A stretch of 28,166 nucleotides of DNA from a virus. Positions within the stretch are counted from its first letter, which is position 1, and every line of letters begins with the position of its first letter. Below the pieces are notes generated by a model. It saw only the letters and a list, made by a program, of their open reading frames with translations. It had not been told where the DNA came from and made no database searches. Location: the IMG/VR virus record IMGVR_UViG_3300031837_000045, positions 1-28,166 of that record. One strand, 5' to 3'. This document shows positions 13,807 to 17,300 of the stretch, piece after piece. The translations under genes and the position numbers were made by a program.

Positions 13807-13850
13807 GCTTATCCGCCATGCCGGATACGCTTATCCGCCATGCCGGATAC
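13807..13850. repeat. 22-bp perfect tandem duplication at the terS stop codon
   Basis: The unit running from GCTTATCC to GGATAC (22 bp) occurs twice without gap (13807-13828, 13829-13850). Each contains TATCCG...CGGATA. The TAA stop of the terminase gene lies at the start of the second unit, so the C-terminal codons (RIRHGG and stop) are duplicated outside the gene. Confidence 0.75.
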
Positions 13851-14508
13851 GCTTTTTGCGCTTCAGCCCAGTCGCTGCCGCGGGATCTGCGCTCTGTGGT
13901 GACTCGATGGGCGCCGCTTGCGGCGTAATATCGATTGCCGTTTGCTGGCCAGTGGTCACATCGATGGCGCTGCCTTCGATGATGTTTCCGCTACGATCGA
14001 TGGTCCTTTCCCAGTCGCTGGACTGCATCGGCTGAGCGCTCAAAGCAAGCACGCCTCCGGTGATATTGATGCCTGCTTTTGCGTTCTCGCGATACTCTTC
14101 GGGACGTGACGCCTTCAGCAGCAGTTCATGCAGCCGAGAATCATAGATTTTCTCGTAGGCGATGATCTCGTCTTTATTGCGGCCTCCGATCAGCGGTTTG
14201 TCGGTGCCTTCGAGTGCGCGGCGCCTGGCTTCTTTGACTAGGGTTGTGTCGATGCAGAGTTGCTTTGCTTCTTCGTAGGCGGCGCCGAAGGCTTCGTCCT
14301 CCTTCGCGTGGCTCATGATCGTGGCGCCAGTCACCCCGACTTTCTCCGCGGCCTCGTACATGAGCCCGGATCGCACGAACTCCTCCAAAAACTGGACCTT
14401 AAGGTCGTTCGTGAACTTCTTTTGACCGCGCCAAACGAAGACTTTCGTCTTATCGACGGCCTGTTTGGCGCCGGGGCGCGTCGGATCTCGCAAAAGTTGA
14501 GCTGACAT
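13831..14508 (-). CDS. terS: terminase small subunit
   Basis: ATG 14508 opens a 225-aa frame. Residues about 30-100 have a DNA-binding HTH (GLMYEAAEKVGVTGATIMSH) followed by the family order AFGAAYEEAKQ, LVKEARRRALEG, YDSRLHELLLKASRPEEYRE. This is the layout of phage terminase small subunits, which recognise packaging DNA and load the large subunit. The C-terminal 80 residues are Pro/Thr/Ala-rich and end in KRKKRIRHGG, a basic tail. No large subunit gene is adjacent, which is unusual. The gene stands alone, leftward, with repeats after its stop and an AT-rich 780-bp region upstream. Confidence 0.8.
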   Translation of the reverse strand: MSAQLLRDPTRPGAKQAVDKTKVFVWRGQKKFTNDLKVQFLEEFVRSGLMYEAAEKVGVTGATIMSHAKEDEAFGAAYEEAKQLCIDTTLVKEARRRALEGTDKPLIGGRNKDEIIAYEKIYDSRLHELLLKASRPEEYRENAKAGINITGGVLALSAQPMQSSDWERTIDRSGNIIEGSAIDVTTGQQTAIDITPQAAPIESPQSADPAAATGLKRKKRIRHGG

Positions 14509-14866
14509 TGGCCCAGTCTAGCGATTCGGGCGGGCGTCCGCGATGACAAACCGATGGGTTTAGCCCCGACCTCGGCTTCCACGAGTTACCCCATCTTTCC
14601 CGCGCCACTTTCCTGTCAACCGAATCACCCTCTAATAAGTTGACAGCCCACAATCCTGTCAACCGAAAGGGTCTCGCCCAGGTATACAGCCGCCCAACTC
14701 CACCTACCGCCCATCGGAAACACTTAAAATCAGCCTCTTTTATTCCAACACGGTATAAGAAAACAAAAACCGGCACTTTTCCTATCTAAGGAACAATTTA
14801 CGACAACCCCCTAATTGAACACTGTTTAGGAGACTTTTTCCTCCGGTATTTATTAACCTTTCTTAC
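14509..14866. other. gene-free AT-rich leader region with TGTCAAC repeats
   Basis: TCCTGTCAACCGAA occurs at 14611-14624 and 14654-14667, 43 bp apart, with an inverted GTTGACAG at 14639-14646 between them. On the bottom strand these provide TTGACA boxes, possibly for terS, but no good -10 is at the right distance. A 108-codon bottom-strand frame (14450-14776) has atypical composition and overlaps terS, so I leave it out. Confidence 0.45.
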
Positions 14867-15020
14867 CTCTAAATCCTATATAAATAAGGGGTAAGTAGGA
14901 CAGTCTGGGCTAATACGCAGTCATTGTAGTCGCTTGGAAAAAAAAATTTCCAAGCAATCACTTCGTCTGCGTATTAGCCCACACGATCTCTCCGACGCCT
15001 TATTTATATAGGATTTAGAG
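14867..15020. repeat. 154-bp concentric palindrome, possible replication or packaging site
   Basis: Three inverted-repeat pairs share one centre (14943.5): an outer 23-bp pair (14867-14889/14998-15020, CTCTAAATCC...), a middle 15-bp pair (14906-14920/14967-14981, TGGGCTAATACGCAG) and an inner 9-bp pair (14932-14940/14947-14955, GCTTGGAAA) around AAAAAA. All 47 pairs are perfect. The unpaired intervals are equal on both sides (16/16 and 11/11 nt) but differ in sequence. The outer arms are strongly AT-rich. No gene is present. Confidence 0.85.
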
Positions 15021-15032
15021 CCCTAAATTGTT

Positions 15033-15064
15033 GTCACTTGCCCGAGGAAAAACCTGCAAGTGAC
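15033..15064. repeat. perfect 9-bp inverted repeat GTCACTTGC/GCAAGTGAC
   Basis: GTCACTTGC (15033-15041) and GCAAGTGAC (15056-15064) are separated by 14 nt; CTTTTC follows on the top strand. It lies between the concentric palindrome and the next promoter. It may be a weak terminator or an operator for the RHH protein encoded at 15288. Confidence 0.5.
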
Positions 15065-15189: not shown

Positions 15190-15291
15190 ATGTTACCAGT
15201 TGGGCTCAACTCTCATAATCCCTTGCTGACTCCACACAACGCTAGTACTATCCACACAGGTCAATCCATACAGGCACTACTCAGCCAATGA
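15190..15291 (+). CDS. possible 33-aa leader ORF coupled to the RHH gene
   Basis: ATG 15190 opens MLPVGLNSHNPLLTPHNAST and ends TGA at 15291, overlapping the RHH start as ATGA. There is no SD, and composition is uninformative, so translation is uncertain. The overlap is its only support. Confidence 0.25.
   Translation: MLPVGLNSHNPLLTPHNASTIHTGQSIQALLSQ
15223..15251 (+). promoter_or_regulatory. second, weaker promoter before the RHH gene
   Basis: TTGCTG (15223-15228), 17 bp, TACTAT (15246-15251), 36 nt before ATG 15288. Each box matches consensus at about four positions. Confidence 0.3.
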
Positions 15292-15470
15292 CAATAAAAC
15301 AGCCGAACGACAAGAACCGAACGACGCAGCAATGCTCGATAACCCTCCCCAAAGATCAGTACGGGCGCATCGTTTTTCTGGCCACACGCCAGCACCGCCC
15401 TGTCTCCAACATGCTGATGGTCGCAGTGGACTACTACCTGCAGCACGCTCCCGAGGCCACACAGCCGTGA
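15288..15470 (+). CDS. ribbon-helix-helix (CopG/Arc-like) DNA-binding protein
   Basis: The 60-aa product has a basic N-terminus, then QCSITLPKDQYGRIVFLATR, QHRPVSNMLMVAVDYYLQHA. This is strand, helix A, turn (R-P-V-S-N) and helix B of an RHH dimeric repressor, similar in plan to the 3036 protein. It heads the cluster carrying the 506-aa protein and sits near the concentric palindrome, so it may control copy number or this promoter (inference). SD is absent. Confidence 0.75.
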   Translation: MTIKQPNDKNRTTQQCSITLPKDQYGRIVFLATRQHRPVSNMLMVAVDYYLQHAPEATQP

Positions 15471-15787
15471 AATACAAGAGTCTTCTTCCCCATACCACTG
15501 ACGAAGACGACAAGGTGTATACCGTCTACAACCCGGACGGCCGAACCTGCTCCCATCGTCATAATTCGACCCAGCGCGCCGAGCTGTGCCTATCCAAGTT
15601 GGAGGACCACAAGGGCTTTCTGGTGGGGCTGATCAAGAGGGGAAAGGTTTGCACCATTGATGGTGTGCCGATCAAGGGTCCACTCGGTCCTGTGTGGCAC
15701 CTGGTAGGAGCGAACGCCGGCTTGGCTGGCAGGGTCAGTTCCACGCGCGAGCCGACGCCCTGTCCGCCGCCCACATTCGATGACTGA
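15467..15787 (+). CDS. hypothetical protein, 106 aa
   Basis: GTG 15467 overlaps the RHH stop as GTGA. The product KYKSLLPHTTDEDDKVYTVY, NPDGRTCSHRHNSTQRAELC is followed by a strand-rich middle (GFLVGLIKRGKVCTIDGVPI) and a Pro/Thr-rich end. Cys and His residues (CSHRH, C) could bind metal. No family is recognised. It overlaps the 506-aa gene by 8 nt. Confidence 0.65.
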   Translation: MKYKSLLPHTTDEDDKVYTVYNPDGRTCSHRHNSTQRAELCLSKLEDHKGFLVGLIKRGKVCTIDGVPIKGPLGPVWHLVGANAGLAGRVSSTREPTPCPPPTFDD

Positions 15788-17300
15788 CCCCTCGCCTGCC
15801 TGCACCCACCTGCGTTCCGACCTCCTCCAGTGCGGCAGGCTGCATCGCGATCAAACCGATGCCCAGCAATGCCCCGCTATCCAGCGAACCCGCCTGCCCT
15901 ACCGCGCGGTCTTCCTGAGCAAGCCGGAGTCGCTCCTGCACGAAGATCCCGAACTGGCCCAGCCTATCGAGTGGGCGCCCGGCGTTCCTGCCGTATGGAT
16001 TCCACAGGATGACACCATCGTCGACGCGCGGCGCAGGAACGAGATCGCCGAGGTCAAGCGCCAGGGCAACATTCGGCGCGACGCCATCAAGACGATGCGA
16101 ACCGAGGAAAAGCAGTTCCTGGACTACGAGCGCCTCCAGAACTCCCCGCATGGCGCCCACTTCAAACAGCCCCACAACGAGCCCCACAATTTCACCGTGT
16201 TCCTGGTCGATCCCAAGACCGCGCACAGCAAGCTGTTCATCGTTAAAGCTGTGCGTCCGGCGCACCTGTGGCACCGTATGGACGCTGCCTTCTTCTTCCC
16301 GGCGCGCGACGCCTACGACCATTTTCTGGTGCAGGGCGCCGATCCTCGCAGCATGACATCCTGGATGGCGCCCGGCATGATGCCGTGCAAGTATAGCGGC
16401 GAGATGACGGACAAGCGCCGCGGGGTGCGCCACCCCTTCGTTTTACTGGGCAACCAGCACTGTTTTTCGTGGAGGGAACTGGAAGCCGGCAACAAGGAGC
16501 GCCACTTCTTCCGCGTCAGCCCCGAGTACTACCTGCGCATTGGCCATAACGACATCGTAGAGATGCACATAGTGCTTGACCGCCATACCGACCCCATCAC
16601 GCTCAGCAAGCCGATAGCCTGCTGCGGTAGCCGCTTCGAGCTGGGCGCGTGGCTTTCGGACAAGCGGCGGCGCAAGCATATGCCCCCTTACTTTCACCTG
16701 TCCGAGGAGTTTACCGACGTCCGGATCAGGGACGTGATCGACAGCTGCCAGCACGCCGATCCTGATGCTACTGGCGGCATCCACACGATGTACAGCTTTC
16801 GCCGCAAGACCGAGAATCACGCGTGGCTAGGCTTCTACAAGGCGCCGCACGCTCCGCTCTACCTACAGCAGACCGACGGCGGCCTGGGCAAGCGCCTCAA
16901 GAAGCTGCAGGACCAGCGCGAGAACATGACACCGCCGCGTCCTGATCCCGACTACGAGTTTGCCACGTCGATCAGTTTTGAGTACTTCGCCCAGAAGATG
17001 ACCCAGCACTACGCCCTATTCACGCTGGGCGGCGGCAAGAAGATGAAGGGGGACGGGCAGGACTTGTCCCGCGGCGAGTTTCAGCAGGAGTGCGACACCT
17101 TCTACGAGGATATCCAGTGGCTCAACGCGCATTCTGAGAACTGGGAGGGGAGTTTTCACCATATCCGATTCTCCAAGTTCGCGAGCCGATGCCGCCTGGT
17201 GGCGCACATGTACAAGGGCCGGTTGATGCTGTGCGACAGACCGATCGGCAACATGGTCTTCGACGACTGCAAGAACGGCTTTTACATATCAAGAGGTTGA
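15780..17300 (+). CDS. 506-aa protein of unknown function
   Basis: ATG 15780 begins the longest complete gene in the window. It opens with CTHLRSDLLQCGRLHRDQTD, which could bind metal, then a helical basic stretch (RRNEIAEVKRQGNIRRDAIK). The middle has NFTVFLVDPKTAHSKLFIVK, FFFPARDAYDHFLVQGADPR, HCFSWRELEAG and YYLRIGHNDIVEMHIVLDRH; the end has SGRSFL-free, Cys/Trp-containing segments such as CDTFYEDIQWLNAHSENWEG. I recognise no polymerase, helicase, nuclease or virion domain. It follows an RHH gene and a promoter next to the palindrome, so a replication-initiator role is conceivable but only from position. Codon use matches neighbours. Confidence 0.85.
   Translation: MTDPSPACTHLRSDLLQCGRLHRDQTDAQQCPAIQRTRLPYRAVFLSKPESLLHEDPELAQPIEWAPGVPAVWIPQDDTIVDARRRNEIAEVKRQGNIRRDAIKTMRTEEKQFLDYERLQNSPHGAHFKQPHNEPHNFTVFLVDPKTAHSKLFIVKAVRPAHLWHRMDAAFFFPARDAYDHFLVQGADPRSMTSWMAPGMMPCKYSGEMTDKRRGVRHPFVLLGNQHCFSWRELEAGNKERHFFRVSPEYYLRIGHNDIVEMHIVLDRHTDPITLSKPIACCGSRFELGAWLSDKRRRKHMPPYFHLSEEFTDVRIRDVIDSCQHADPDATGGIHTMYSFRRKTENHAWLGFYKAPHAPLYLQQTDGGLGKRLKKLQDQRENMTPPRPDPDYEFATSISFEYFAQKMTQHYALFTLGGGKKMKGDGQDLSRGEFQQECDTFYEDIQWLNAHSENWEGSFHHIRFSKFASRCRLVAHMYKGRLMLCDRPIGNMVFDDCKNGFYISRG

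Follow-up and report, generated by a model that had tools for sequence, protein, structure and literature searches.

What is the role of a large set of nested inverted repeats that lies between the gene for the terminase small subunit (terS) and a ribbon-helix-helix (RHH) gene in a bog phage? The window, which is the whole stretch of DNA analysed (28,166 bp), is a 28-kb piece of a complete phage genome. The ends of the 77,431-bp contig overlap by 127 bp, which gives a circular map of 77,304 bp; the window spans the contig-end junction of this circle, and genome coordinates (genome G001, IMGVR_UViG_3300029951_000020) equal window coordinates minus 321. The phage sequence is identical across several metagenome samples, and so are all known copies of the dyad. 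The assembly of the Yuavirus Lydia likewise has 127-bp end repeats (PMC11946847). From sequence comparison, the phage appears to be distantly related to the Mesyanzhinovviridae, with its capsid, terminase, polymerase, primase and helicase proteins 44-71% identical to those of Pseudomonas phage YuA (major capsid protein about 70%, TerL 61%, primase 51%, PolA 50%) and the gene order of its replication module as in YuA; unlike in YuA, terS is located about 16 kb from terL. The replication operon encodes ParB-like and HU-like DNA-binding proteins (genome 39997-40839 and 37362-37652), and no YuA counterpart of the ParB-like gene was found by tblastn. A Hint domain was seen in one protein of the replication group, and a SNF2-type helicase gene (L015:17316-19715; genome 45815-48214) gives a 799-aa translation with an intein-like insert ending ..YLVHNC. 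The phage also has a tRNA-Ile (GAT) gene (L012:9700-9776).

The features around the dyad are listed below in window coordinates.

13831-14508, minus strand: terS, encoding the small terminase subunit (PHROG 4044, E 2e-31); its start codon and the dyad centre are about 436 bp apart
14613-14663, no strand: GTTGACAG/CTGTCAAC occurs three times between the dyad and terS, in both orientations (sequence)
14738-14887, no strand: candidate DNA unwinding element; at 67% AT, no other 150-bp stretch of the 77-kb genome is as AT-rich (next best 56%)
14835-14843, plus strand: fourth block, left arm, 9 bp, TTTTTCCTC, pairs with 15044-15052
14867-14889, plus strand: outer block, left arm, 23 bp, CTCTAAATCCTATATAAATAAGG, perfect complement of 14998-15020
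14906-14920, plus strand: middle block, left arm, 15 bp, TGGGCTAATACGCAG, perfect complement of 14967-14981
14932-14940, plus strand: inner block, left arm, 9 bp, GCTTGGAAA, perfect complement of 14947-14955
14941-14946, no strand: central AAAAAA spacer, or loop (sequence)
14947-14955, minus strand: inner block, right arm, complement of 14932-14940
14967-14981, minus strand: middle block, right arm, complement of 14906-14920
14998-15020, minus strand: outer block, right arm, complement of 14867-14889
15033-15064, plus strand: possible terminator, a perfect 9-bp stem GTCACTTGC/GCAAGTGAC with CTTTT after it (sequence, RNA fold)
15044-15052, minus strand: fourth block, right arm, GAGGAAAAA, pairs with 14835-14843
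15288-15470, plus strand: 60-aa protein of the ribbon-helix-helix type (Pfam RHH_5, E 8e-6, slightly short of the curated cut-off)
15780-17300, plus strand: 506-aa orphan protein, no relative found

Three perfect inverted pairs of 23, 15 and 9 bp share one centre, at 14943.5, in a 154-base element (14867-15020), and the unpaired intervals between them measure 16/16 and 11/11 nt, exactly as the initial annotation described. Its placing of the element between terS and the RHH gene with the 506-aa gene also holds, and no other convincing gene was found between terS and the RHH gene. A fourth perfect pair, of 9 bp, was found outside the other three; it shares their centre and is absent from that annotation. 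Its right arm lies in the loop of the stem at 15033-15064, for which the terminator scan gave no call. The blocks are distinct words and not repeats of one another, and thus no iterons are visible in this phage. The GTTGACAG/CTGTCAAC words upstream of terS may form a second regulator site. For the 506-aa protein, no relative was found in phages, plasmids, species genomes or viral contigs other than this phage, and its fold predicted without an alignment was unusable (pLDDT 31.5).

Of the 78 positions of the dyad, 58 are paired, compared with a window-wide mean of 20.0 (sd 4.1) and a next best of 41, and the maxima in 20 simulated genomes of equal size (first-order Markov) were 38-42 pairs. No other palindrome in the 77-kb genome comes close to it by this ungapped score. 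We conclude that the dyad is a real and probably functional element rather than a product of chance. The initial annotation had argued that neutral decay would not keep three blocks perfect and in register. The clustering of matches into long perfect runs was equalled in only 19 of 20,000 permutations; equal gap lengths, in contrast, are no independent evidence, since any palindrome decaying by substitution alone shows them, and by themselves they mean only that insertions and deletions are absent. A functionless inverted duplication, made by a template switch and having since lost parts, would account for the 11 of 27 gap positions that still match, slightly more than expected by chance and compatible with an older, fuller palindrome, and the same phage holds another imperfect inverted duplication. 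We nevertheless consider such decay quite improbable, given the clustering of the perfect blocks beyond chance and the dyads that relatives carry at the same place. The other duplication (genome 42701-42868, about 168 bp, 86.9 bits) lies before a Dda-like helicase gene and is made up of the 3' end of a gene resembling YuA gp05 and, after it, an inverted and diverged copy of that same end. It is unrelated to the dyad, of which no second homologous copy was found in the genome. In addition, a 42-bp inverted repeat, 95% identical (genome 76482-76523), follows the minus-strand gene 76692-77360 and is probably a strong terminator.

The initial annotation had raised a hairpin-telomere parallel while pointing out that the centre, AAAAAA, is not a perfectly palindromic core. 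The centre is as it was described, and the parallel is disfavoured. Nested inverted repeats and a ParB-like gene are what an N15-like linear plasmid prophage with a telomere resolution site could show, but no ResT/TelK-type protelomerase or tyrosine recombinase was matched at E 10 anywhere in the 77-kb genome (PF16684, PF00589; controls detected), the A6 centre is not palindromic, contigs read through it, and relatives have two copies of the site. A telomere is therefore the least credible of the explanations considered here.

Comparison with relatives places the dyad in a wider setting. Around related large terminases, same-centre multi-block dyads were present in only 4 of 33 loci, all of them 570-1,095 bp upstream of terL, that is, beside terS; two of the four share their block pattern and probably represent one phage. 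When the strongest inverted repeat spanning 90-700 bp was compared across 17 loci with terS known or placed, the rank-one repeat lay 335-436 bp upstream of terS in nine (eight of 16 without this phage), namely in this phage, YuA, Bordetella phage FP1, PAKlein3, phiH2, ZQG1, and the genomes G003, G004 and G005. With this phage left out and homologous sequences collapsed, the count is 5 of 12 loci (p ~2e-7, for an interval picked after the data had been seen). Despite the shared place, the sequence of these dyads differs from that of this phage; distant blastn of the dyad site against phages gave no match, and in a search of viral contigs the 15-bp arm occurred paired only in this phage. The other eight loci had no rank-one dyad in the 335-436 bp interval. 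The locus L022 has a strong dyad nearer to terS, the site of vanta (Yuavirus) aligns with that of YuA at a lower score, and no comparable dyad was found in 83-24, AMA2, S0112 or DoCa10. A palindrome in L045 was rejected as a relative's dyad; it lies at a contig end and looks like an assembly artefact. A parallel with CtrA sites was also set aside, the paper on it concerning alphaproteobacterial phages.

The shared place coincides with a shared composition. In this phage, the AT-richest stretch overlaps the left outer arm, on the terS side of the dyad. The AT-richest 150-bp stretch coincides with the site in YuA and G004, and also in FP1, PAKlein3, phiH2, ZQG1 and Donnerlittchen, for which five the maximum covers part-genomes only; in G003, it falls at the sister copy. 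A second, sequence-related site was found 22-39 kb away in all seven relatives tested (YuA, FP1, G003, G004, G005, PAKlein3 and ZQG1). In YuA (NC_010116), the two sites are at about 600 and 33,120: the non-coding region upstream of terS (32839-33499) has dyad symmetry and the AT maximum, and the sister copy (412-840) stands at the head of the helicase operon. The second site also precedes the helicase operon in FP1 and PAKlein3, where the PAKlein3 copy is inverted (86% over 295 bp), and in ZQG1 it lies between the capsid gene and a divergent gene. On the basis of place, symmetry and AT content, we infer that the dyad of this phage belongs to the same functional class, and positional counterparts of differing sequence would then share one function.

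The anatomy of the relatives' sites points to protein binding. In YuA, FP1 and G003, three 9-bp iterons per side are arranged in inverted orientation around a variable centre, with an AT-rich tail toward terS; the YuA iterons are TACTTAGGT, TACTTGGGT and TTCTTACCT on the left and GGTAAGTAAGTTAAGTAAGTTAAGTA on the right. In G004 and G005, each side carries the 9-bp iteron ACTCTACCT three times. With all known copies of the dyad itself identical, the check for independently varying arms that the initial annotation proposed bears on relatives. In Yuavirus-type sites, the TTACTT core is constant, whereas positions outside it change in one arm independently of the other (Bordetella phage CN2 compared with YuA), so that strand-to-strand pairing is not what is conserved; this favours protein sites over a base-paired cruciform. 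The proposal in the initial annotation of conserved inverted protein-binding half-sites thus gains from the dyad-symmetric arrays of relatives, which occupy the same place, coincide with the AT maximum and come in two copies, and as judged from these sequences such half-sites may well be present here. A structured RNA, in which the transcribed strand would fold into a long rod, could be read from the fold z-score of -13. This is very unlikely: the arms change independently in relatives, the dyad has no Rfam match, and the pairs in the perfect blocks are all Watson-Crick without any G-U, which favours DNA sites over an RNA helix.

The initial annotation had favoured a replication origin or a packaging junction, and the two halves of this idea fared differently. 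In a pac site, rings of TerS would bind both flanks and TerL would cut between them, as in SPP1 pacL-pacC-pacR or P1 pac. The constant distance between dyad and terS fits this, as does its persistence beside terS in this phage, where about 16 kb separate that gene from terL. In SPP1, the flanks bound by TerS lie on either side of the cut, and the authors of the Lydia study infer that packaging in the family is of the headful type with circular permutation (PMC11946847). However, relatives have two copies per genome, one of them far from terS, and the motif outlasts divergence of the TerS DNA-binding domain. Between YuA and G003, the relatives in which this could be seen, the right-array iterons are identical and primase and PolA are 82-84% identical, whereas TerS is only 46% identical and its helix-turn-helix differs. 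The second copy and the identical iterons argue against a site recognised by TerS, and we regard a pac site as unlikely.

A role as promoter or operator at the heads of major operons deserves more weight. Here, a phage repressor or activator, for instance the RHH protein or the HTH protein whose gene neighbours that of primase, would bind the inverted arrays, loop the DNA and control terS and the RHH operon. Such a role is possible because the two annotated sigma-70 promoters of YuA (489-568 and 33014-33160, with clear -35/-10 boxes) overlap its two sites. In YuA, FP1 and PAKlein3, one site precedes terS and the other the helicase operon; in ZQG1, a site adjoins the capsid operon, and in this phage terS (minus strand) and the RHH gene (plus strand) diverge from the dyad. 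An operator, however, needs less than the spacing, size (150-280 bp) and coincidence with the AT maximum that are seen, and no sigma-70 promoter beyond chance was found in the dyad region of this phage. We therefore consider this reading a doubtful one, yet more plausible than packaging. The origin and promoter/operator roles do not exclude each other.

Considering the above results, the dyad is most likely a replication origin, composed of a protein-binding dyad and an unwinding element, a reading to which we give about an even chance. In its favour are the position near terS, the AT maximum, the inverted iterons and two copies in relatives, and the iterons shared by YuA and G003 in spite of their different TerS. 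Against it count the single copy and lack of visible iterons in this phage, the AT-richness that promoters also have, the relatives without a dyad, and GC skew, which the initial annotation had proposed as a check and which shows no clear inflection at the dyad and is not informative. In a plausible model, a phage initiator would assemble symmetrically on the nested inverted half-sites, after which the adjoining AT-rich DNA toward terS would melt and the helicase would load; the initiator is perhaps the 828-aa primase-helicase or the product of the neighbouring HTH gene. More broadly, we tentatively propose that Mesyanzhinovviridae-type siphoviruses may have paired dyad-symmetric origins whose place is fixed (the head of the terS operon and of another operon) and whose sequence has turned over completely between lineages; in this phage, a single, fully concentric site with four unlike half-site pairs would be what is left of the pair.

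In the database records consulted, annotation of the terS-upstream region in YuA and its relatives gives only a promoter, a terminator or small ORFs and no origin, and the open literature searched yielded no description of an origin or of intergenic repeats in YuA-type phages or Mesyanzhinovviridae. The family-wide landmark is thus apparently undescribed, as is the unusual, fully concentric form that it takes in this phage. If the reading is correct, a candidate origin, or a master control site, can be named for a family with cultured members (YuA, M6, FP1), and the site would be a clear example of a recognition sequence that changes while its place and symmetry persist.

Several known systems resemble parts of this arrangement. 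The protelomerase sites of the N15 telRL type have nested inverted repeats in common with the dyad, which differs in its non-palindromic A6 centre and in a genome with no protelomerase gene. The pac site of P1 consists of two hexamer clusters. In both SPP1 pac and P1 pac, protein sites bracket a centre near terS, as here; in contrast, relatives carry the present site a second time at a large distance from terS, and changes in the DNA-binding domain of TerS are not mirrored in the motif of the site. SPP1 oriL and oriR consist of direct repeats and an AT-rich unwinding element (PMC6316719), an arrangement of binding sites beside an AT-rich stretch like that of the dyad, and SPP1 has two related sites per genome, one of them intergenic and in the late part, as YuA-type relatives have two. 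Origins in general do not need a second site. The SPP1 repeats are direct, whereas the sites here are inverted about one centre, and this phage differs further in that its half-sites are four different words, one copy was found and no gp38-like initiator was identified. The terS-upstream region of YuA and other Mesyanzhinovviridae has 9-bp iterons, two copies and an unrelated sequence, compared with the distinct blocks of this phage, but shares with it the same place relative to terS, the dyad symmetry and the AT maximum.
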